From Hypomesus transpacificus (Eukaryota > Chordata > Actinopteri > Osmeriformes > Osmeridae): 64,000 bases of DNA. The stretch is from contig NC_061061.1 in NCBI RefSeq assembly GCF_021917145.1, positions 16,487,149 through 16,551,148 on the forward strand. Direction: 5' to 3'. A model generated the notes under the pieces. That model worked only from the letters and a program-made list of their open reading frames with translations. It made no database searches and had not been told where the DNA came from. Within the stretch, counting starts at the first letter, position 1. Every line of letters starts with the position of its first letter. Positions 3,032-62,064 of the stretch are shown here, one piece after another. The position numbers were made by a program, and so were the translations under genes.

Positions 3032-3363
3032 GAGGAGTGCACTCCCATTTGGCGATTTCTTCAAGGGCGCCCAGAATAATCGGACACCTTATTGGAGGCA
3101 GGGATCAACCCAAGCAGGTAAGAAGTTTCAGACGACTTAAATTACAATCACTTGGATTACGGAAATATATCAACAGTCGTATCTCATTTCCTCTCATCCA
3201 CTCGATTTCCCTGTTGTTATCCCTATCCCTTTCCTTCATCTCTCTCTCACCTCATTTCCAAAATGTTCAGTTTTCTCCCTAATTTCTCGTCACTACTTCT
3301 TCCCCTCTTCTACCTTCCTTCTCTTCACTATAATCCTTCTACCACCCTCCCTCTTCCCCAGTC

Positions 3364-4142
3364 ATGTCGTATCAGACAGAAGTGATCAGCTCCCAGCCAC
3401 AGGTCACTGTTACAAGCTACACCATCTCCTCCAACACTGCCGAATGGAGCTCCAATGTGTGTGACTGCTGTGAGGACTGCGGTATCTGTAAGTGTGTATA
3501 TGTGTGTGTGCGTGTAGGGTGAAGTGCCATGCCCAAGGACACAACGTCATTTGGCACGGCCGGAATTCAAACCGGCAACCTTCTGATTACAAGTCCGATT
3601 ACCTAACCGCTCAGCCACCTGACTCCCTGTGATACGCTGATACGTCTTTCTCTCTCCTGCGCAGGCATCTGCGGGACATTCATTCCCTGCATCCTGGCCT
3701 GTAAGGTGTCTCAGGATCACGGAGACAGCTGCTGCCTGCCCTTCCTCCCTGGAGCCATGATAGCCCTGAGGACCAGCATCCGCAGCAAACACCACATCTC
3801 CGTAAGTCACGTCCCCCTCAGCAGTCCCAGCCCTAAGGTTTGGGTCACACCAGACGGGGGGGGAAACCGCCACTTAACATAGTCAGCGCCATTGTGATTG
3901 TGATTGGTGAGTTTATGAGCGTGGGAACAGTTTCATTACTTTTTAGATTGTGATTGAATGAGAGGGAGACCACTTATGCTGCGGTCAAAAGTCAAATAAA
4001 GAATTGTCTAATCAGCTGCAACCGTCATAAACTGTCACGTGCTGATCCCCAGGGCTCCGTGTGTGATGACTGGGTCGTCATGTCCTGCCTGCCTCTCTGT
4101 GGACTATGTCAGATGGCTCGAGAGCAGAAGTCTAGAGGATGA
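3364..4142 (+). CDS. cnfn: Cornifelin (PLAC8 family)
   Basis: Coding exons 3364-3487, 3665-3801 and 4053-4142 join in phase (1, 0) to give 116 residues, close to the 112 of human cornifelin. An untranslated first exon probably ends at 3117, and the coding exon follows a CAG acceptor two bases before the ATG. The protein is a cysteine-rich PLAC8-domain protein. It has a CDCCEDCGIC cluster near residues 35-44, a CCLPFLPG segment, and the C-terminal VCDDW and SCLPLCGLCQMARE motifs typical of the family. Cornifelin is a component of the cornified envelope of stratified epithelium in mammals, and fish paralogues are expressed in skin and gut. It is the first gene of a block matching human 19q13.2. 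An antisense SINE fragment sits in the first coding intron. The alternative is another cornifelin-like PLAC8 paralogue. Confidence 0.88.
3515..3627 (-). mobile_element. tRNA-derived SINE fragment in cnfn intron
   Basis: Antisense copy of the SINE repeated through this window. The tRNA-like head ('GGCTGAGCGG' A box and 'GGTTTGAATTCC' B box, read on the minus strand) and part of the body are present. The 'GCGTCTGCTAAATGA' tail is missing, so the copy is truncated. Confidence 0.8.
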
Positions 4143-13843: not shown

Positions 13844-15667
13844 ATGAGCGCAGGAGAATGTAACCCCGCCGCCACACCCACCTCTTGTGTGGACGTGCAA
13901 GGAGATGGACGATGGATGTCTTTGGTGTGTTGTTTATCTGGTCTTAAGATACGTCTTAACCATATTATCTAAAGTAGTCCCTTATTACAGCTCAGGACAT
14001 CTCCTCAATTAGGCTACCTACAATTTCATATATGTTGTGACATATATTTGTTTTTGTCTGAATTCCTTGCAATAGACAATATGACTTGTGTAATTTGTTA
14101 TTTGAATCAAGTAATCGTCCATTTTCACCATTTTTACCTGGAGGTAGAGAGCATGCTTTAACAACCACTGGTACTTGTTTGTAAACTCGCATGCATACGA
14201 TACTGTAGATATTGATTTTAATCTGCTGATTGTTGCAATTGCCAGTTTTTAGATGTATTAACATACCTGTTGTTCATGTTCATAGCACAATCGCTTTGTT
14301 TCGGACAGCAAGGGCAAGGAACCTGACGTCCTGTTTGTTGGGGACTCTCTTGTACAGCTTTTGCACCAATTTGAGGTAATATACAGTACATGTTCATTGA
14401 CTGTATTCCAATTTTCAATCTAAACCTCGTTCCCAGGTCAATTATCTACATTTCAAACCAAAGGGCTCCCACTCCTATATGGTTCAAACATGTTGTGAGG
14501 CTCTTTTTGTACATGTGGAGAAAGCCAGACTCTTTACATTTGTGAAAACTTTGAAGTTGTCTTTTGATGTTTTATTACATGTAGTCTAATATTAATTACT
14601 ATTAATACGATATCCGTCAATCTGGTTCAAATGATTTGAAATTATGTGTCCTTGTTTTTGTCAGGTGTGGAGAAAGTTGTTTTCTCCCCTCCACACTCTA
14701 AACTTTGGTGTAGGCGGTGATGCCACACAGCACGTCTTATGGAGGCTGGGCAATGGAGAGTTGGACCACATCAGCCCGAAGGTATGCATAGGGGAGTCAG
14801 ATGGCTGAGCGGTGAGGGAGTCGGGCTAGTAATCAGAAGGTTGCTGGATCGATTCCCCGCCGTGCCACATGATGTTGTGTCCTTGGGCAAGGCACTTCAC
14901 CCTACTTGCCTTGCCTACTTGACTAGATGTGAATGTAGTGGTGACAACCTCAACTTAGCATGTCCCTAGACCAAAAAACATTGTAATCATTAGTCCACAT
15001 GCTTTGTAATCAAGGATCATTTTCATTTTAGTAATGAAATTGCCAGCTTTACTACTATGGTGTTCTTTGCTGTTTATTCATAGGTTGTGGTTCTGTGGGT
15101 GGGCACCAACAACCATGGCCACACTGCAGAGCAGGTCTGTGGAGGCATCATGGCTATTGTCCAGCTCATCAAGAACAAGCTGCCCAATGCCCACACCCTC
15201 GTTCTGGTAGGTTTGTGACCCTGCTGTCTGTCTTGTCCTTTTGCTCTGTGGATTTTGTGAGCTCGGATAGTTTTCAGATTGTGGTTGCTATTCATAAAAT
15301 TTGAAAAAAAAAATGTTGACAGTTTGTTTATAGCTGTCCGATACTGTCTGCTCTCAGTATTCGTCGGTCACGTCCTGTCAGTCTAATCTTTCATTGTCAC
15401 CCACAGGGATTGCTACCCAGGGGTCGGTTGTCCAACCCTCTGCGAGAGAAGAACAGCCTGGTTAACCAGCTAGTCCAGGAGGGTGTGTCTTCACTCCCCC
15501 ACGCCTCCTTTCTCAACGTGGACCCCGGCTTTGTGCTGTCAGACGGAAGCATCTCCCACCAGGATATGTACGACTACCTCCACCTCACACCCAAGGCCTA
15601 CCACGCCGTGTGCACGCCCCTACATGCACACGTCAAGACCCTGCTGGAGAGACCGGCAGAGAACTGA
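13844..15667 (+). CDS. pafah1b3: PAF acetylhydrolase 1b catalytic subunit 3
   Basis: Five exons (13844-13924, 14286-14375, 14665-14781, 15084-15206, 15407-15667) are all phase 0 and encode 223 residues (human PAFAH1B3: 231). It is an SGNH/GDSL esterase that removes the sn-2 acetyl group of platelet-activating factor. It acts in the cytosol as a dimer with PAFAH1B2 and the LIS1 subunit. Visible catalytic residues are Ser48 in VGDSLV, the Gly block (NFGVGGDATQHVLWR), Asn in WVGTNNHGHT, and Asp193 and His196 in MYDYLHL. The N-terminus keeps VQGDGRWMSL. Intron 3 carries a truncated SINE. PAFAH1B2 is the alternative, but adjacency to prr19 supports PAFAH1B3. Confidence 0.93.
14791..14910 (+). mobile_element. 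Truncated tRNA-derived SINE in pafah1b3 intron 3
   Basis: The sense-oriented head (GGGGAGTCAGATGGCTGAGC) and body end at the CACTTCACCCTACTTGCC segment. The conserved tail is missing. The element starts ten bases after the exon 3 donor. Confidence 0.8.
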
Positions 15668-18480
15668 AGACCCCCCCCCCCCCGCCTTACACTTGATACC
15701 CACTTTCCAGAACATACACACTACTGTAGTCTCCCCCCTTTCCCTCCCCCTGCCCTTCAGTCCTGAGGAATGTGATGGTGTACAGTTTTTGGTCCCAGCA
15801 ACACACTGTTAAGATCGATGTTCCTTGTTTTAACTCGATCGACAAGGCCCTGGGGGTTTCCTCCAGAGATCAGTGCTGTGCTGATCAGCGCTGTTCAGTG
15901 CTGTGCTGATCAGTGCTGTGCTGATTAGTGCAGTGCTGATTAGTGCTGTGCTGATCAGTGCTGTGCTGATCAGTGCTGTTCAGTGCTGTGCTGATTAGTG
16001 CTGTGCTGATCAGTGCTGTGCTGATCAGTGCTGTTCAGTGCTGTGCTGATTAGTGCTGTGCTGATTAGTGCTGTGCTGATCAGTGCTGTGCTGATCAGTG
16101 CTGTGCTGATCAGTGCTGTGCTGATTAGTGCTGTGCTGATCAGTGCTGTGCTGTGCTGATCAGTGCTGTGCTGATTAGTGCTGTGCTGTACCAAAAACAT
16201 GCCTCTTGCTCTCCTTCCCCAAGGCCAGGCTTGTTCACCACTGTGCTGCTCTTCATGGGACCGTTACTTTCGATCAAATTGTAGAAGCTCTGAAATAAGC
16301 TCCTGTTGTTTTGCTTGTCAGTAACAGCTGATGTTTTTTTTCTTAGGTTACTGGTAGAAGATATTAGAATTTGTCAAAGAAATTATGATCTCATCGCTAT
16401 CCCATAAAATAGTTTTATTCCATTATATTCACATTTCTTGTATATTATCTTTTTCCTCCCTGTTTTGGACTTCTGTCAGTTTTGTTAAGTAAATGTTATT
16501 TTTGGTTAAGGCAGAGACTGAACGCCAAAAGGATGCCACAATGTCATTGAATAGGGCAATGCTTCACTCTTTTGACAGTGATTATACCTGTCTCGTACTT
16601 GTTTATGCTTTTTCAGCCGTTTGTATCGAACCTTGCCATTTGTTTTGATTCTGTTTGCAATCTGGGACGAATGTGTCTGTACAAGATTGTGTTGATAGTA
16701 TGTTGCTTCATGAAGAGAAAAGGTATGATTTTTTGTGTGTTACATTTCCCTGTAAGACTGTATGTTAAGTGCTTCTGTGGGCCTATCAGGGCCCATCTTG
16801 CTTGATAAGCGAGGTGTTGCCTCATTTCAACAACAGTTATGTGAGTAGAGCTGTGATGGCTGTGATGGCAAAACATTAAAATGATCTGAAAGTTTAGCAC
16901 GTGTGGAAAGCTTTTTTGGGGGTTTCTTGTTCATGTGTGGTCTGGTGGCCTAATTTTGTTTTGTGGATGTTAGAGATGGGAGAGGAGATATATCATGTTT
17001 GTCTCCTTATCACTATTTAGTTTAGTTTTACATGGTTGCCCACTTATGCCAAAGCACTGCAGCAGAGAAAAGTACACGGTTGAAGACCTCTATTCAAAAT
17101 AGATTGATGGTCATTGCTGAATAAGATGATTATCATATTCTGCAGAAATATCTCATGAAAGATAAGATGTATTTTAATCATGACCAATTTGTATCAAAGT
17201 TGTTTACTGACAGATTCGTGATTTGGGTTTGTGAGTTTGGGAAATGTGAATATTAAGCCATAATAGTTCAATCTAATACTAAAGCTCTTGCATAGGTTTA
17301 GTGGGCCTACTCCTCAGAATCAAATCAAATTTATTTGTATAGCCCTTTTTACACGCAAGCATGTCAGTCAGTGCCTTGAATTAGTAGCAAAACTGTAATA
17401 GCTGCAAGGCATGTCCTTGTGATTCTTTGGTGAGCAAAACCTTGGGAGTGCAGTGAATTGAACTTTATAACAGAAGAGCTAAAAAAAGACAATTTTGCCT
17501 GGGAGAGACTTATCCATAGGGTAGCTACAAAACTTCAGTGTGTTCAGTTCAGTTCCCTCAAACCTGTGGGTTCAGCATGAGCAAGAAGACAACCAACGTA
17601 AAAAAAACTTATGGCATTCTTTATCAGTACTGGTGTTAACACATTTAAAATATCTACAAAGAGTATGTTTTATGCTTATAAGCACGTTAGCTTGTTTAGG
17701 TGACAAGGTCTTTCATATCTCCCCGCAGGGACCTTGGTACGGTTTGTTGTCAGTTTCTGTCATCTGCTTAAAGATTTAAAAATGTCTCTTCATGGGGGAT
17801 CAAAAGACCTAAGCGTGCTTTCTTTCTATGAAAGACAATGTGGACTGTGCACCTTGTTTAGTAGTGGGATTGTATTGCATGGAGGTGAGGAGTTTAAATC
17901 AATCTTAGCGTAACCGTGTAGACAGCTCGCTCAGAGCAGGTAGGAATTTTCTTTACTCTAAGTTGTCCTGAGGGCAGAAACGTTTCCACCTACTCCGTGC
18001 GATCAGAAACTCCACCATCCGTAACTGGAAACTCATCAATTAAACTCAAATAGGATGTCCTGCCGCTGAAGAATGTTTTGTGATAGTGCTTGTTAATAGT
18101 CTGCTTTCATTGCTTGAGCGAAGAATAGCATAACAGGATGTTCTATCAGATCTGCAATGTCTTATCCCATATCAGTTTTTGCCATGTTGGGTCATTGTCA
18201 TAAAGGGCCCACATCTGTGCATCTTCCAAACATCACTCAACAGTAGTATGAGATGTTGTGTTGGCATGTGTCCAGTCTTAAATGCCCTGAGTCTGTGCAC
18301 GCATTAAGACAGGTGTGAATGTGTGAGGGCATGCTTCAGTTTACAGTATTGGCCAGACAAACAGGAGACAGAAAGGACAGCTAACCGGTTGGTTTCATCC
18401 CGTGAATCAACATGGCCAGCAGCAACCTTCATAAAGGACTGAACAAATTACTTATTTCATCCAGTAGCCTAGGTTCTGCA
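15668..18480. other. pafah1b3 3' region and intergenic spacer
   Basis: Holds a poly-C stretch just after the stop codon, the 15-base tandem array (separate entry), AT-rich sequence with an ATTAAA near 16874 that may end the pafah1b3 transcript, and a dispersed repeat end ('CAAATTTATTTGTATAGCCC' at about 17326). No convincing gene is seen on either strand. Confidence 0.5.
15868..16192 (+). repeat. 15-base minisatellite (GCTGATCAGTGCTGT)
   Basis: About 20 units of a 15-base sequence whose variants read GATCA or GATTA, some with an inserted GTTCAGTGCT. It begins about 200 bases after the pafah1b3 stop codon, so it may be transcribed in its 3' untranslated region. Its length gives long open frames on the minus strand that are not genes. 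Confidence 0.9.
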
Positions 18481-18483
18481 GGG

Positions 18484-18491
18484 TTTATAAA
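18484..18491 (+). promoter_or_regulatory. TATA box of the CXCL17-like gene
   Basis: TTTATAAA lies about 50 bases ahead of the ATG at 18537, which would give a short 5' untranslated region of about 20-25 bases. The motif and its spacing are the only evidence. Confidence 0.5.
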
Positions 18492-18536: not shown

Positions 18537-19688
18537 ATGTTTTCTCCAGTGTTACTGTTCTTTTTTGTATTTATTATTTTCGCTGATGGAGGTCAAGGTA
18601 CTGAATATTTGTTTTACTCAGAGTTGTTAACGTATTTTTTAAATATTGTTTTTTATTATGGTTTAGGTATATAATTTTCCTAATTTCACTGTCACTATTA
18701 ACTATGTTAAAGTAGCATATGTTTAAATGTCTGTTCCCCTTTTATATCATTGTCTAAATAAATACATTTATTAATGGCACATATTTTGTGTACCCTCGAT
18801 TTTCCCGTATTTGTGAAGGTGGAACCACACTGGAAGAGCCACAGAGGGACAATCTGGAGACGGTCCAAACAAAAGACAGTAAGGAAATGACCTGTAATAC
18901 CAGCGTTGGCGTTACTATGTAGCTTCGTTGATACCAGGGTAACTGGAGTAGGTTATCTGAGGTTGAGATTGTTGTGTTGCAGCCGCTACTGAGGTAGTAG
19001 AGTTCCGGAGACCCGTGAAGCAGAACGGTTCTTCTGGAGAGCCCAGTCGTCGGTGTGACTATGACAGTGAGTGACACGGATGCCAGGAACATCTTCTAAC
19101 AACAGATCGAGATTGACTTTGGTAAATGATTCCTTATTTTGTGTTCTCAATGTGACCCAGGACGGACAGGAGGGAAAGTTATCGCGAGTTTATTTTGCAA
19201 GGAACATGTCAAATCCTCCAACAAGCCCAGAATGAACTGTGAGTAACCATGGTCTTGGAGAACTATATTTTTTTATTTCAACATGTTAACTTATATACAT
19301 TAAAAATGAAATGAAATAAATTCATATTTCAAGAGGTGAATTCAAAACCAACAAATTCAGTGATGTTCAAATTTCAATATTAGGTCTATAAGGTCGCCTT
19401 TCAAAATTCAAAACATGTCACTGATTTGCTTCCATAGAGCTGTGGACTGCCGTAAAACGATACTAATATTATAATGTTTTATGGTCTTACAATCTTCAAA
19501 ATGTTTGTTTAAGCAAATTAGCTTCCCTGTCCATTTGTAATCCTGTGTTCGGCTTCTTCTCTCGGGCTTCCCATAATCACAAAGTTGCTCAAAAGTGCCG
19601 GAGGAATGGATTCCGGAGTCTGAAGACCTGTCGAAGAGAGTTGAAGAAACAAAAGAAAGACCAGGGCAAATCCACCATTCCCATTTAA
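18537..19688 (+). CDS. Small secreted basic protein, candidate CXCL17
   Basis: Five exons (18537-18597, 18819-18878, 18983-19066, 19161-19238, 19585-19688), every intron phase 1, encode 128 residues. Exon 1 is a signal peptide (MFSPVLLFFFVFIIFADG). Residues 21-48 are acidic. From 49 on, the chain is very basic (24 Lys/Arg, 6 acidic) with cysteines at 65, 81, 99 and 110. It ends in Thr-Ile-Pro-Ile. Human CXCL17 (119 residues) is likewise secreted, basic and cysteine-containing, and ends Leu-Pro-Leu. An aliphatic-Pro-aliphatic C-terminus is reported to drive its receptor GPR25. The gene lies next to a CEACAM-like gene within the cnfn/prr19/pafah1b3 block, the same neighbourhood as human CXCL17. 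Sequence identity is low, and four cysteines replace six, so orthology is inferred. A TATA box and an AATAAA frame the gene. The exon 1 donor (G|GTACTG) is weak. Confidence 0.65.
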
Positions 19689-19854: not shown

Positions 19855-19860
19855 AATAAA
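19855..19860 (+). terminator. Polyadenylation signal of the CXCL17-like gene
   Basis: AATAAA lies 167 bases after the stop codon on the + strand, followed by an A-rich run. It is the first canonical signal downstream. Confidence 0.6.
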
Positions 19861-20047
19861 CTTATCGAAAAAAAATGTATCTTTGGCATTCAGGTGTCTT
19901 TGGTTTGTCCTGAGGGGCAGCATATATGCTAATGTTAAAAAAAGGTTACACTACACACAAAGTTCCAGTTTGACCACGAGGAATGTAACCAATATTGCAC
20001 CCTGACCTAGACTACTGTTAAAAATAACAAACTTTTAGACACAAAAC

Positions 20048-20588: not shown

Positions 20589-23500
20589 TCAGTGGGACCA
20601 CAGGTCATTGACCACAGGGACGAAGAGAGCGACCAGAACCATCAGCATCAAACCAGCGCTTGAGTGGAGTGGGACGACTGAGTTTCCTGAGAGAGAGACC
20701 AGGCAGAGGAGAAAGGAGGGAGAAGGTGGAGAATTATTTACATTCCCAACTGTTAGTTGTTTGAGGTTTATTGGCGCTGTGTTGGGTTTGACTGTTATTG
20801 ATGTGATGCCCGCTGTGGAGGGTAGGGATAGTGTCAGGCAAAGTGTCAACGCGGTTCCTTCCGTACAGTGACAGATTCAACATGTTCTGATATAAATTGC
20901 AATATAGAACAGTGCTTGCTGAACAATACCGTAGGGAGCATACTGTAGTGTGCCTATGTTTTCTAGCCTTCCTGCTCCTGAAAACAAGTGGATAAAAGAA
21001 ATGTTTTTGAGATTATCTATGTATTTTGGATCAATTACACTTACCAATAACAGTGAGTTTCTGAGAGGCTGTGCTGTTCTTGTTTGTGATGTTGTTGAAG
21101 GCGACACAGGTGAACTCTTCATTATTGTGTGAGGTCAGCGGGCCAGACTCATAAACTGAGCCAGTGGCCACTTGGGAGCCATTAAACAACCAGGTGTAGG
21201 TGCTGGGGGGCTGAGAGGAGGCTGTGCAGGTGAGGGTCACATTCTGGCTCGTCAAATTCAACCATGGGCCCATTATGACGGGAGTATCTGGCCCATCTGA
21301 AACATAAAGCTGATTATTAGACAGAATCACTACTGTATTGGCCTGATGCCGGTACATTTCATCAAGGCCATGGAGTCAACATTTGGGGGGACGAAATCTA
21401 CTGGGGAGTCTGAGGGTCCCCCCCGAAGACATTTTACTTTATGAATATAATTAAATTTTTAATGATAATTTCGGACAGCATGCGTGGTTGCCTGTCGTAG
21501 TGTAGCACACTTATTTATTATTTATATTTTTACATATTGGGGGGGACATTTTGACCAGATTTGAATATTGGGGAGGTGTGTCCCTCCCAATATATATTGT
21601 GATTACAGCCCTGCATTATGTTACATTTACATCTAGTCATTTAGCAGACGCTCTTATCCAAAGCGACTTACGATAAGTACAGGGACCTTCCCCCCGGAAA
21701 TCTAAACTTCAGATTGATAGCCCGATTCCCGAACCGCTCAGCCATCTGACCCTAACAGGTAACAGGAGATTCATCACCATTGTGATGATTCCCATGAAGA
21801 CCACAAAATAATCCATTCATCAGCACAATGATCAGGTAAAGTGTTCAACTTCCTTCAGACAGTCAGTAGGCCTAAGGACTTTCAGGCTTAGAAACTTTCT
21901 AAATGTATTCCATCGCAACTCATGTCTTGGAGTACAAACGCTTGACATCATCATGGTAATCAAACAATTGAGTAAACACGAGCTAGCACGTTACAGAATC
22001 AGAATTCAGTTTATTCACCATGTATGTTATACTAACACGGAATTTACTGTGGCAGGGAGGTGCCAACAATAATCATATACGAATCTTAAATGAAGTGAAA
22101 GTACAAACGTTTAACTATTTCTAAGAACTAAACAATTTAACAATGAAACAATTTAAATATAAAGTATATATAAGAATAAGAATGAGCAGCATGAGTGGTC
22201 AACAGTGCAATCAGATACTGAGATAAGGTGGCTTATGCATAGTGCAATTGCCATTAGATGGACTTATAATAGTTCAATAAATGAATGAATGTCAGTGGGA
22301 GTCCTAGGCCTTGTTGAAGAGGACAGTAGCAGATGGAAAAATACTGTTCTTATGGCGTGAGGTTTTGGTCCTGATGGACCAGGGAGTGTCCACGGTGGGA
22401 GGGGTCGGCCACAATCTTCCTTGCTCGCCTCAGGATCCTCGAGGTGTGCAGATCCTCGAGGGATGGCAGATTGCAGCCGATCACCTTTTCAGCCGTGTGG
22501 TTGATACGCTGCAGTTTGCTCTTGTCCTAGGCAGTGGCAGCAGCTGCGCAGCAGCGTACCAGATGGTGATGGAGGAGGTGGGGATGGACTCAATGATGGC
22601 TGTGCAGAAGTGCACCATCATTGTCTTTGGCAGGTTGAATTTCTTCAGCTGCTGTAGGAAGTACATCCTCTGTTGTGCTTTCTTGGTGAGGGAGCTGATG
22701 TTCAGTTCCCACTTGAAGTCCTGGGAGAGGATAGTGCCCAGGAAGCGGAAGGACTCCACAGTGTTGACTGGGGAGTCACTCAGGGTGATGGGGGTGAGTG
22801 GGGCTGTGTTCTTCCCGAAGTCCACAACCATCTCCACTTTCTTGAGAGCATTGAGCTCTAGGTTGTTCTGGCTGCACCGGTTGTCAGCTTCCCACCTGTA
22901 ATCAGACTCGTCCCCATCAGAGATAAGCCCAATGAGGGTGGTGTCGTCCGTAAACTTCAGGAGTTTGACAGACGGATGACCGGAGGTGCAGCTGTTGGTG
23001 TACAGGGAGAAGGGCAGAGGGGAAAGGACGCAGCCCTGAGGAGATCCAGTGCTGAAGGACCGGGAGTCAGAGACTTGTGTTCCCAGCTTAACGCACTGCT
23101 TCCTGTCAGACAGGAAGTCTGTGATCCACCTGCAGGTGAAGTCGGGCACGTTCAGCTGGGAGAGCTTGTCCTATAGCAGGGCGGGACTGATGGTGTTGAA
23201 GGCAGAGCTGAAATCCACAAACAGGATTCTGATCCACTAACAGGATCCCGCACCTTCTCTCTTGATTGTTCAAGCCAGAGAACACTTTGCCAACCATCCC
23301 TGCCAAGTCAACACAAGTTCATTCATAATGTTTTTGTCATGGGGTTTACACTACACACAAGGCACTTTTGGCAATATGCTGGTAAGAGTCACTGTTTCCG
23401 TAGAAACAAACCGAATACACTGAAACACACTATCATGGCGTATCACCAGACACAGCACCATGACGGGACAAATTTTAACATGCATTCATTTGGAAGACTT

Positions 23501-24855
23501 TCAGAGCATGACAACTTACAGCTAATGTTCAGACTTATAGACTGTCTGACCATGTCGTGACTGATGCCATTGGAGACGTTGCACCTGAACGGCCCCGTGT
23601 CATAGCGGGTTACCATAGGGATGCTGACAGTAGAACCGCCATTGGTCAGCTGAACCAGACTGGCATTGACCTCAGAGCTGCCATTAAGCCAGAGGTAGGA
23701 GAGGGAGGAGCCAGTGGTGACAGAGCAGGTGAAAACTGCTGTGTCATTTAGCTCCACCAGGTCGGTGGCATCGGCCCTCAGGATGGCGTTTGAAATGGGC
23801 TCTGTGAGGAGAAGAGAGCAGACGTCATTGTCCTATATACCCACACAGGTTACATCCTTTTTCTTGAAAACGTACAATATATATTTTCTTTCTGCTTTGG
23901 ACAGATACATACATTATGACCTGTTTAGGGTTGAGCTTCCGTAAAACCTTGCCATAGTTCTTGGTAACTGTAACCATGGCAATTGCTCGGAAAAGTACGG
24001 TGTGGCCAGGTTGTTGAACTTTGGATAAACTCCTAGCCCAGGCCTACCCTTCATTTATGACAAGTATACATATAGCAAATATAGCTTCACAATGATATCA
24101 GTTAGCACTGGCATTGAAACACAGACTAACAGGCAGACAGACGGGCATTCAGAAGGCAAGGCAGAAAGAAAGAAAGACAGACAGACAGGCAGACAGACAT
24201 ATATAGGCCAACTGAACATCTTACCTTGGACCGACAAAATCACATTCAGTTCTATGGATGGCCCTTGAATCAAATATATTCCTGAATCTGCCACCTGGAC
24301 TGATCTTATGGAGAGAGCCAAAAGGGTTGAATTGAAGGTGATCCGGCTTGCCCATGTAGGATTAGGAAAGGAACCCATGGGGTACCACTGCATGATGAAT
24401 GTTGATCCATGAAACCACATCCCTCCTTGGATGGATGTCTCAGGGTACACCTGCAGTGTGACATTGCTGTTCACAGCTGCATGATTCAGAGACGCGACTA
24501 TCGTCTGACCACTAACATCTGAAAGGATAAGGTGTCATTAGGCTTTGATTGCAATAACTAGATTCTGTTAAATGATACATTTGACAAAATATCAATCTAA
24601 GTTGGTTATGTCTACTGTATATATTTAGACATGTATATTTTCCTTTAAACAAACATTTCATTTACAAACAAATGTATGTATGCATGATCTGTCACCTGTT
24701 GGAGATTGAATTTAAAAAGTACATCAAACATAACCAATCTCATCACTGATCTCTCACCTAATGGAAAATAAACCTTTAAAGGTTTTTACCAGTGATTCAG
24801 AATTACCTTTACTGGTGGTTAGACACAGCAGGAGACACAGCACAGAATACTCCAT
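20589..24855 (-). CDS. CEACAM-like immunoglobulin receptor
   Basis: Minus-strand exons 24855-24807, 24518-24225, 23801-23520, 21296-21045 and 20686-20589, all phase 1, give 324 residues. Exon 1 is a signal peptide (MEYSVLCLLLCLTT). Exon 2 is an N-type V-like domain without the usual cysteine pair, as in CEACAM N domains, and contains VADSGIY. Exons 3 and 4 are C2-like Ig domains with Cys-Trp-Cys cores (FTCSV..YLWLNG..FRCNV and LTCTA..YTWLFNG..FTCVA) and many N-glycosylation sites. Exon 5 gives a hydrophobic stretch (AGLMLMVLVALFVPVV) ending six residues later (NDLWSH). This leaves no signalling tail and suggests a GPI anchor or a tail-less receptor. CEACAMs mediate cell adhesion and microbe binding on epithelia and leukocytes. 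A LINE remnant and a SINE lie in intron 3. Other fish Ig receptors cannot be excluded. Confidence 0.78.
21621..21752 (-). mobile_element. tRNA-derived SINE, internally shortened
   Basis: The antisense copy has both the tail (TTAGCAGACGCTCTTATCC) and the tRNA-like head end (CCGCTCAGCCATCTGACC). The middle CTTGCCCAAGG section is deleted. It lies in intron 3 of the CEACAM-like gene. Confidence 0.8.
21990..23306 (-). mobile_element. Decayed LINE with reverse-transcriptase remnant
   Basis: The minus-strand frame 23149-22481 matches the C-terminal half of a non-LTR reverse transcriptase of the L2/CR1-like type common in fish. It includes a FTDDTTLIGLI segment at the catalytic Asp-Asp site, a VESFRFLGT motif and a KKAQQRMYFLQQLKKF motif. 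Upstream the frame is broken by an in-frame stop and a frame change, and no endonuclease is present, so the copy is 5'-truncated and dead. It inserted into intron 3 of the CEACAM-like gene in the same orientation. The downstream boundary near 21990 is approximate. Confidence 0.8.
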
Positions 24856-26842
24856 GTTACCTGCTGAGAAATGAGCGGCTTGATTTCAGTATCGTAGCCA
24901 CAATCCTTTTTCAATCAGCAAATATTTGTTCAAGATCATACAGTTACGGCTCAAAGGATAGAAATATAGCCTATTTTCAGCACACCTTTCCACGCCCCAT
25001 TATGCCCTGGTTATGGTAATGGTATTTGGGTTGACACACTGGGGTGTGTTTGTGTTTGTTAGTTATGTTTTTTAAACAGCTGCACAAGTTTGCAAAGTAA
25101 AACTGTGATTTTAACCACTTATATCAGCTACTTGAAGGGATTGGAAAGTTAACAGAGGTTTGATTGGCTAGAAAGTTGGCGGTTATGAAACAAATCCATT
25201 GGTTTTATTGTACAAATGATATCAACACAAACATCAATAGTGCAAGTGTATATTGTCTCTGTTCTGCAGCTTCACAGTTTATTGGGGGGTGGTAGTTATT
25301 TGCGTATGTTATATGTCTGATGTGTTGGTGAGAAAGGCCAACTTGAATACGTGTCAATGTTGGAATGACTTGAATAATGCAGAACTCTTCAGGATACAGA
25401 ACAGAGAGCCCGCTCAGAAGTACCTCCTTACTCCTGACATAGTATCTTGTCAGAAAAGCTGAGCTCAGCTCTCAGCTTCACAAGTGACTGGAAAGCTGAG
25501 ATGACTTAGGCAAAGAGGCCTGCAATCAAGTACTTCAGTAAACAACTGACTGAAGACACACAGAACTTTTGTCAGGATACAGAAGTTCTGTAACTAGGAG
25601 GAGACTGGCTGAAGGGGTTTAGACTTGATAGCTCTTGGTATTCTTGGTGTGTGTGTTTTAGCAGGGACAAGTGTTTCATTAATAATTCATACCTCCATTT
25701 CTGCAGTAGTTTTGCAATCATATCAGACTGTTATTATTCAGTTTCATGGTGTTAGCATATAATATCTGACATCATCCAATTTGATTCAGTGTTTGCGTTT
25801 CAGCACGATTTCCGTGTTAATTGACAAGGTGCCGTGTGTGACTACATTTGACAGAACGACTACAAACCCCTGAAGTGATGATAAGAAATTAGGTCAGAGT
25901 CAAGATCTGGTTCCAGTCTCTGAGATTTACAAATACATTTCAGATGAGAAAAGGGGAGAGGGGAAAGGATAGAAAAGAGAGGAGGAGCAAAGCAGAGGAC
26001 TTCTAGAGAGAAAAAGAAGAAATGGAAACAGACAAAGAAAGAGAGGCCAGGATTGCATCAGGATTGCCACGCCGTCTGGAATCTTAGGAATCCAAGAATT
26101 CTGCAGTGCTTTCAGCGAACATTCCACCCCAACACCCCCATGCCCCCCCCCAACCCACTCCCGGCGTATAAATAAGCTTCTATAACCATAAGAGAAACTC
26201 ATTGCTCCATCTTTCCCCCCTAGTGCCCCATTTGAACTTGAAAGCGGTTGAACGTAATTATATTGGTTGATTCTTGACTTGGTCACGTGTTGCATCCTCA
26301 GCGAAGACTTTAGCGGTGGTTCTATCTTGCGTTGGCCCTTGATCTCTGCTCTCTGTGCCCTTGAGGACTTGTCGTTTGACAGGCCCCACTCCCCTCAAAA
26401 AATGAAGCAGAGAGAAAAGCCATTATCAAAGTTGCCCACATCAAGGGCTCTTATGAAGATTTAGCTCCAGCGTTTACATTTTTTATTTTAGAAAAGGTTT
26501 CATTTTTACAGCATGAAATCAGACACATTGTCTAGGTTTCTTCCTCATTGTATGTAACACAACAAAACAGACATAAAGCTGTACTTCACATGACTATGGA
26601 TGGCATAATTAATATGTGAAAGGGCACTTATTGGCAATATACCCCCCAATCTCCCTTTTTTTTTATACAATGTTTACATCAATGACAAATGTATTGAACA
26701 AACAAGTAACAGTTCAGTGTGTTTCAGTTTGATTTGTATTTATCTACCTCCTTAAAAGGTCGGGGTTGTAACTTTCTGTTGTATAACATGTTTTAATGTT
26801 TACTCTGTGTGTGTGTGTGTGTGTGTGCGTGGTCGTCCCCAG
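24856..26842. other. Spacer between the CEACAM-like gene and the first prex1 exon
   Basis: Should contain the CEACAM-like promoter (minus strand). I searched it on the + strand for the missing first prex1 exons, which would encode the start of the DH domain, and found none. It holds a purine-rich stretch around 25945-26045, a C-run near 26143, a TATAAATA at 26167-26174 and a short GT repeat just before the exon at 26843. Confidence 0.6.

Positions 26843-62064
<35,222 letters not shown>

Follow-up and report, generated by a model that had tools for sequence, protein, structure and literature searches.

A probable cxcl17 ortholog with four cysteines in the pafah1b3-ceacam interval of the smelt Hypomesus transpacificus

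We found a five-exon candidate gene in the pafah1b3-ceacam interval of the smelt Hypomesus transpacificus. The gene lies at 18537-19688 on the plus strand of the window, the 64,000-nucleotide stretch of DNA that was analysed. It is probably smelt cxcl17, orthologous by position to the zebrafish gene (zgc:158701, B0S594; PMC12905490), without the second and third cysteines (C2 and C3) and with an extra acidic exon. Its product is most likely a small basic secreted protein that would activate GPR25. We regard orthology as likely on the grounds of position, cysteine register, and C-terminal tail.

CXCL17 was earlier held to occur in placental mammals only (PMC10792014). In 2026, two zebrafish genes were reported to activate GPR25 (PMC12905490). 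The EC50 of zebrafish CXCL17 on zebrafish GPR25 is near 100 nM, and removal of its last three residues nearly abolished GPR25 binding, activation, and chemotaxis; PMC12905490 describes the protein as having no significant overall similarity to mammalian CXCL17. According to the same source, the 'lamprey CXCL17' of earlier work is an interleukin-17. In the CXCL17/GPR25 literature, no other study of fish CXCL17 was found by title and abstract among the matches listed. A text match to '158701' in PMC11238053 was an item in the reference list and not the gene zgc:158701.

Gene order around the candidate

We found that the gene order in the window is CNFN, TLR21, PRR19, PAFAH1B3, the candidate, and CEACAM. 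The CNFN (cornifelin) exons (3334-4139, plus strand) are to the left of TLR21, approximately 14 kb upstream of the candidate, and encode a PLAC8 domain (6.9e-13). TLR21 is intronless and 92% identical to TLR21 of Osmerus eperlanus; the next matches were one protein without a name (77%) and, as the next with a name, a Coregonus protein (67%). There was no match of TLR21 to PDB sequences at E up to 1e-60. PRR19 is on the minus strand, upstream of the candidate (Pfam, 1.4e-10). PAFAH1B3 (14292-15667, plus strand) forms the left flank of the interval. We recognised four exon pieces of this gene, with the 5' part not traced, and these matched the gamma subunit of PAF-AH Ib (1.7e-84) better than the beta subunit (9.9e-77). 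The PAFAH1B3 stop codon is approximately 2.9 kb before the candidate ATG.

The right flank is a CEACAM-like gene (20589-24885, minus strand) that lies approximately 0.9 kb downstream of the candidate. An earlier note on this DNA had named such a neighbour. Pfam recognised two Ig-C2-like exons, and among PDB sequences one Ig exon matched carcinoembryonic antigen best (2.4e-23). A leader, an Ig-V-like exon, and a hydrophobic C-terminal tail were identified by eye.

The candidate lies at the locus by which fish CXCL17 is recognised in PMC12905490, between pafah1b3 and ceacam and near cnfn, and zebrafish cxcl17 itself is placed there between pafah1b3 and ceacam1, near cnfn. In catfishes, CNFN, TLR21, PRR19, PAFAH1B3, and CEACAM are given as one block in identical order (PMC12896404). 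Human CXCL17 also has CNFN, PAFAH1B3, and CEACAM neighbours (PMC12905490, PMC8274849) and, like the candidate, is basic with an X-Pro-X end (Leu-Pro-Leu).

Three other features were seen around the CEACAM-like gene. By eye, its hydrophobic tail is short, has no cytoplasmic part, and resembles a GPI signal; zebrafish CEACAMz1 is likewise predicted to be GPI-anchored (PMC8274849). A reverse-transcriptase fragment (22484-23170, minus strand; RVT_1, 1.1e-8; ALKBH8_N, 9.6e-15), probably from a LINE, lies between two of the Ig exons. PREX1-like exons (41831-43584, plus strand; 5.8e-47 to human-type P-Rex1 chains) follow the gene.

GPR15 ligand is another small basic ligand. We set it aside as the identity of the candidate because of the locus.

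Structure of the candidate gene

The candidate has five exons on the plus strand, and all of its introns are GT-AG and in phase 1. Exon 1 (18537-18597) contains the ATG and a hydrophobic, signal-peptide-like segment, MFSPVLLFFFVFIIFADGGQ, and ends at the donor AAG/gtactg. Exons 2 to 4 are symmetric. Exon 2 (18819-18878, 60 nt) encodes an acidic stretch of 20 residues. Exon 3 (18983-19066, 84 nt) ends with SRRCDYD, which includes Cys65 (C1) and, at the site of zebrafish C2, Tyr67 (codon TAT). Exon 4 (19161-19238, 78 nt) encodes ASLFCKEH, with Leu79 at the site of zebrafish C3 and Cys81 (C4). Exon 5 (19585-19688, stop codon included) encodes Cys99 (C5), Cys110 (C6), a predicted basic helical hairpin, and the Ile-Pro-Ile end followed by the stop. 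A TATAAA box (18486-18491, plus strand) is approximately 50 bp 5' of the ATG, and an AATAAA polyadenylation signal is at 19855-19860 (plus strand).

The product is 128 amino acids long, has cysteines at 65, 81, 99, and 110, contains no Trp, and ends in KSTIPI. Its overall pI is 10.1, similar to that of mature Dr-CXCL17 (10.5; PMC12905490). Residues 21-45 have a pI of 4.1 and residues 46-128 a pI of 10.8; by exon, exon 2 is acidic, exon 3 is balanced, and exons 4 and 5 are strongly basic. Our analysis reproduced exactly the five-exon, phase-1 model of the earlier note, with its GT-AG introns, length, and four cysteine positions, and also found the TATA box (TATAAA at 18486), the acidic and then basic chain, and the Ile-Pro-Ile C-terminus (STIPI) that had been described. 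Skipping of exon 2 would keep the frame and give a protein of 108 amino acids. Because zebrafish CXCL17 has 109 amino acids and four exons (PMC12905490), exon 2 might be a cassette that is optional or restricted to this lineage.

We compared several features of the model with chance. On the Kyte-Doolittle scale, the hydrophobicity of the candidate start was reached by 1 of the 821 ATG starts with 24 open codons on both strands of the window, namely the candidate itself. The signal peptide claimed previously is described here as a strongly hydrophobic, signal-peptide-like N-terminus that may be cleaved. The terminal pattern C-x10-C-x15-[ILMV]P[ILMV]-stop occurred once in the window; 60 synthetic windows generated by a first-order Markov model and searched on both strands contained two hits (0.033 expected per 64 kb). 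In contrast, X-Pro-X-stop by itself is no evidence because it is frequent both in the window (22 occurrences) and in synthetic sequence (19 per window). Within the pafah1b3-ceacam interval there was one further open segment of at least 15 residues ending in X-Pro-X (19914-19970), and it has no cysteines. A tblastn search of the window found no second copy of the candidate.

Splice sites were scored with a splice-site matrix. The candidate sites were in the 87th to 97th percentile of plus-strand GT or AG dinucleotides, with the exception of the exon 5 acceptor. The exon 1 donor was fair (90th percentile of GTs). The exon 5 acceptor ranked at the 50th percentile of AGs, although a long pyrimidine tract precedes it and, by eye, no other AG comes in between.

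A model put together by eye from short exons, on sequence alone, might be spurious and the DNA non-coding. No stop codon interrupts exon 2 in any of the three frames or exon 1 in two of them, and therefore their openness is hardly informative. However, the rarity of the terminal pattern in synthetic windows, the signal-like start (1/821), the consistent phase-1 junctions, and the expectation of a known gene in the pafah1b3-ceacam interval all argue against this explanation, and we consider it highly improbable.

Cysteine register and sequence similarity

We found that the cysteines of the candidate are in register with those of zebrafish CXCL17. Zebrafish CXCL17 has cysteines at 47, 49, 60, 62, 80, and 91 in the order CXC-CXC-C-C (PMC12905490). 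Counted from the C-terminus, these are at distances of 62, 60, 49, 47, 29, and 18, and the candidate cysteines are at 63, 47, 29, and 18. Three of the four coincide exactly (-47, -29, and -18), and the remaining one is off by one residue. By the hypergeometric calculation, the probability of at least three exact matches was 4.3e-4 for 104 positions and 7.9e-4 for 85; it was 2.5e-4 or 1.2e-3 by random draws (20,000 each), and 5e-5 or 2.5e-4 if the fourth cysteine was also near; the measure was chosen after reading PMC12905490, and therefore these values are support and not proof. Three references were compared. Zebrafish CXCL17-like (si:dkey-112a7.5) shared two of the four distances (-47 and -29; P ~0.02), and human CXCL17, which has six cysteines, shared none (0/4).

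The gaps between the cysteines tell the same story. From C4 to C5 (18), from C5 to C6 (11), and from C6 to the end (18), the candidate gaps equal those of zebrafish CXCL17; from C1 to C4 the gap is 16 in the candidate and 15 in zebrafish (PMC12905490). The C4-C5 gap crosses the exon 4/5 junction, which has the weakest acceptor, and so gives independent support for that splice. The cysteine register supports orthology to zebrafish CXCL17.

Other properties are also shared with zebrafish CXCL17, including the pafah1b3-ceacam interval, a signal-peptide-like start, a basic mature chain, and an aliphatic-Pro-Ile end (PMC12905490). In contrast, zebrafish CXCL17 has four exons, 109 residues, six cysteines, and a Leu-Pro-Ile end, and the candidate has five exons, 128 residues, four cysteines, and Ile-Pro-Ile (PMC12905490). 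Zebrafish CXCL17-like is secreted, as the candidate would be, and resembles it in being small and basic with an X-Pro-X end; it differs in that it is on another chromosome with other neighbours, has a CXC-C-CXC-C pattern, and is 95 amino acids long (PMC12905490).

Searches by sequence similarity found no relatives of the candidate. Pfam contained no matching family up to an E of 10 (HMMER filters on). The mammalian CXCL17 profile PF15211, a comparison that the earlier note had asked for, did not match the candidate in that search; as a control, human CXCL17 matched it at 6.7e-53. The best E among PDB sequences was 2.2, and human CXCL17 had no sequence match in PDB below E 0.5. Among 5.8 billion proteins, nothing was found at E up to 10, and only five candidates shared words at all. 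That search considered only proteins with exact shared 5-residue words, and therefore the null result says little about distant relatives. The database includes many fish proteins, Osmerus eperlanus TLR21 among them, and so the result does count against a close annotated relative. In a control search with CNFN, small fish proteins were present; none of the 60 cluster representatives listed carried the name Osmerus. A clear match to another secreted family had been named previously as evidence against CXCL17, and none was found in Pfam (E up to 10), in PDB, or in the 5.8 billion proteins.

These results might also indicate that the candidate is a small basic secreted peptide unrelated to CXCL17, whether antimicrobial or not, that lies between pafah1b3 and ceacam and ends in Ile-Pro-Ile by chance. 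That nothing similar turned up in Pfam, PDB, or the large database, and that X-Pro-X-stop is abundant, are what such a peptide would predict. However, chance would then also have to account for the register with zebrafish CXCL17 (P of 2.5e-4 to 1.2e-3, with one of the three references tried), the interval shared with zebrafish CXCL17, the similar pI, and the length without exon 2 (108 amino acids, compared to 109). We consider an unrelated peptide quite improbable.

By the definition in PMC12905490, a fish CXCL17 is secreted and shorter than 200 amino acids, ends in X-Pro-X with a large aliphatic X, and has six cysteines as CXC-CXC-C-C, a pattern that published fish homologs 'typically' carry. 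The candidate has 128 amino acids, a rare hydrophobic N-terminus, and IPI-stop. It has four cysteines and no CXC. Because the published cysteine pattern is absent and no Pfam or database relative was found, we class the gene, on position and register, as a probable cxcl17 ortholog that would work in a CXCL17-like manner, and not as a member of the family by the published definition. The fish CXCL17 orthologue proposed in the earlier note is partly supported, by synteny, the signal-peptide-like start, the basic chain, the Ile-Pro-Ile end, and the register; the cysteine count and the similarity searches go against it.

Missing cysteines and possible function

The cysteine pattern had been described before only as changed. 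The change can now be stated more sharply: relative to zebrafish, the candidate keeps C1, C4, C5, and C6 and lacks only C2 and C3, with Tyr67 and Leu79 in their places and one extra residue between these two compared to zebrafish C2-C3. Since zebrafish CXCL17 and the mammalian proteins share the six-cysteine pattern (PMC12905490), the more economical interpretation is a loss in the smelt lineage.

The two missing cysteines are mutual partners in the AlphaFold2 model of zebrafish CXCL17, a low-confidence model that pairs 47-62, 49-60, and 80-91 (PMC12905490). In the human monomer model, C1 pairs with C6 and C4 with C5, and C2 and C3 are close with no bond predicted (PMC10628517). Joint loss of C2 and C3 would leave the other bonds intact on both of these models, which differ in those bonds. 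The human dimer model has bonds C1-C3, C2-C6, and C4-C5 (PMC10628517), and there the same loss would not leave the others intact. When the exon 5 peptide was folded alone, the prediction (mean pLDDT 76, pTM 0.38) was a helix-turn-helix with one cysteine per helix (Cys99 and Cys110) and a loose tail. This model would fit a C5-C6 staple and a free tail, and is a test of neither.

A true cxcl17 ortholog by descent could be decaying, or could no longer be a GPR25 ligand, with the absence of C2 and C3 reflecting relaxed constraint and not a working redesign. Two of the six cysteines are gone, no annotated protein of close relatives was found among the 5.8 billion, and the exon 5 acceptor is weak and the exon 1 donor only fair. 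However, the frame is open through all five exons, and the gene has a TATA box, a poly-A signal, the signal-like start, the tail, and four cysteines in or near register. In addition, the zebrafish model joins the two missing cysteines in one disulfide (PMC12905490); if two of six were lost at random, a bonded pair would be removed in 3 of 15 ways. Based on these results we consider decay unlikely.

We favor a working smelt CXCL17 and suggest, by analogy with zebrafish, how it might act. The gene would be transcribed, and the protein, after signal cleavage, would be secreted as a small basic protein, probably at a mucosal surface. A disulfide-stapled basic body (C65-C81 and C99-C110, if paired as in the zebrafish model) would be retained on glycosaminoglycans at the secreting surface. 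On lymphocytes, the orthosteric pocket of GPR25 would take up the flexible Ile-Pro-Ile end, and activation of the receptor would attract these cells by chemotaxis. Secretion, glycosaminoglycan retention, and insertion of the tail into GPR25 have been proposed, and in part shown, for zebrafish CXCL17 (PMC12905490). Compared to zebrafish, smelt CXCL17 would be without C2 and C3, the predicted inner disulfide, and would have added or kept the 20-residue acidic exon.

That C2 and C3 are the two cysteines missing hints at which disulfide is optional. An ortholog that lost both CXC motifs as a pair and kept the receptor tail and the C1/C4/C5/C6 spacing would be a natural experiment, in which the CXC motifs, to which CXCL17 owes its chemokine name, are dispensable and GPR25 can be driven by nothing more than a basic stapled body with an X-Pro-X tail; we give this interpretation an even chance. 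If true, the smelt ortholog would extend locus-defined cxcl17 to another teleost lineage. The absence of these two cysteines also argues for searches by locus, tail, and cysteine spacing. Because the candidate has four cysteines, a screen demanding six would miss the smelt gene.

The window also contains minisatellite arrays at 15868-16188, 27335-28034, 41241-41572, and 52028-52238, with units of 15, 19, 9/27, and ~25 bases, respectively. Some of these arrays carry long open frames that are probably spurious.
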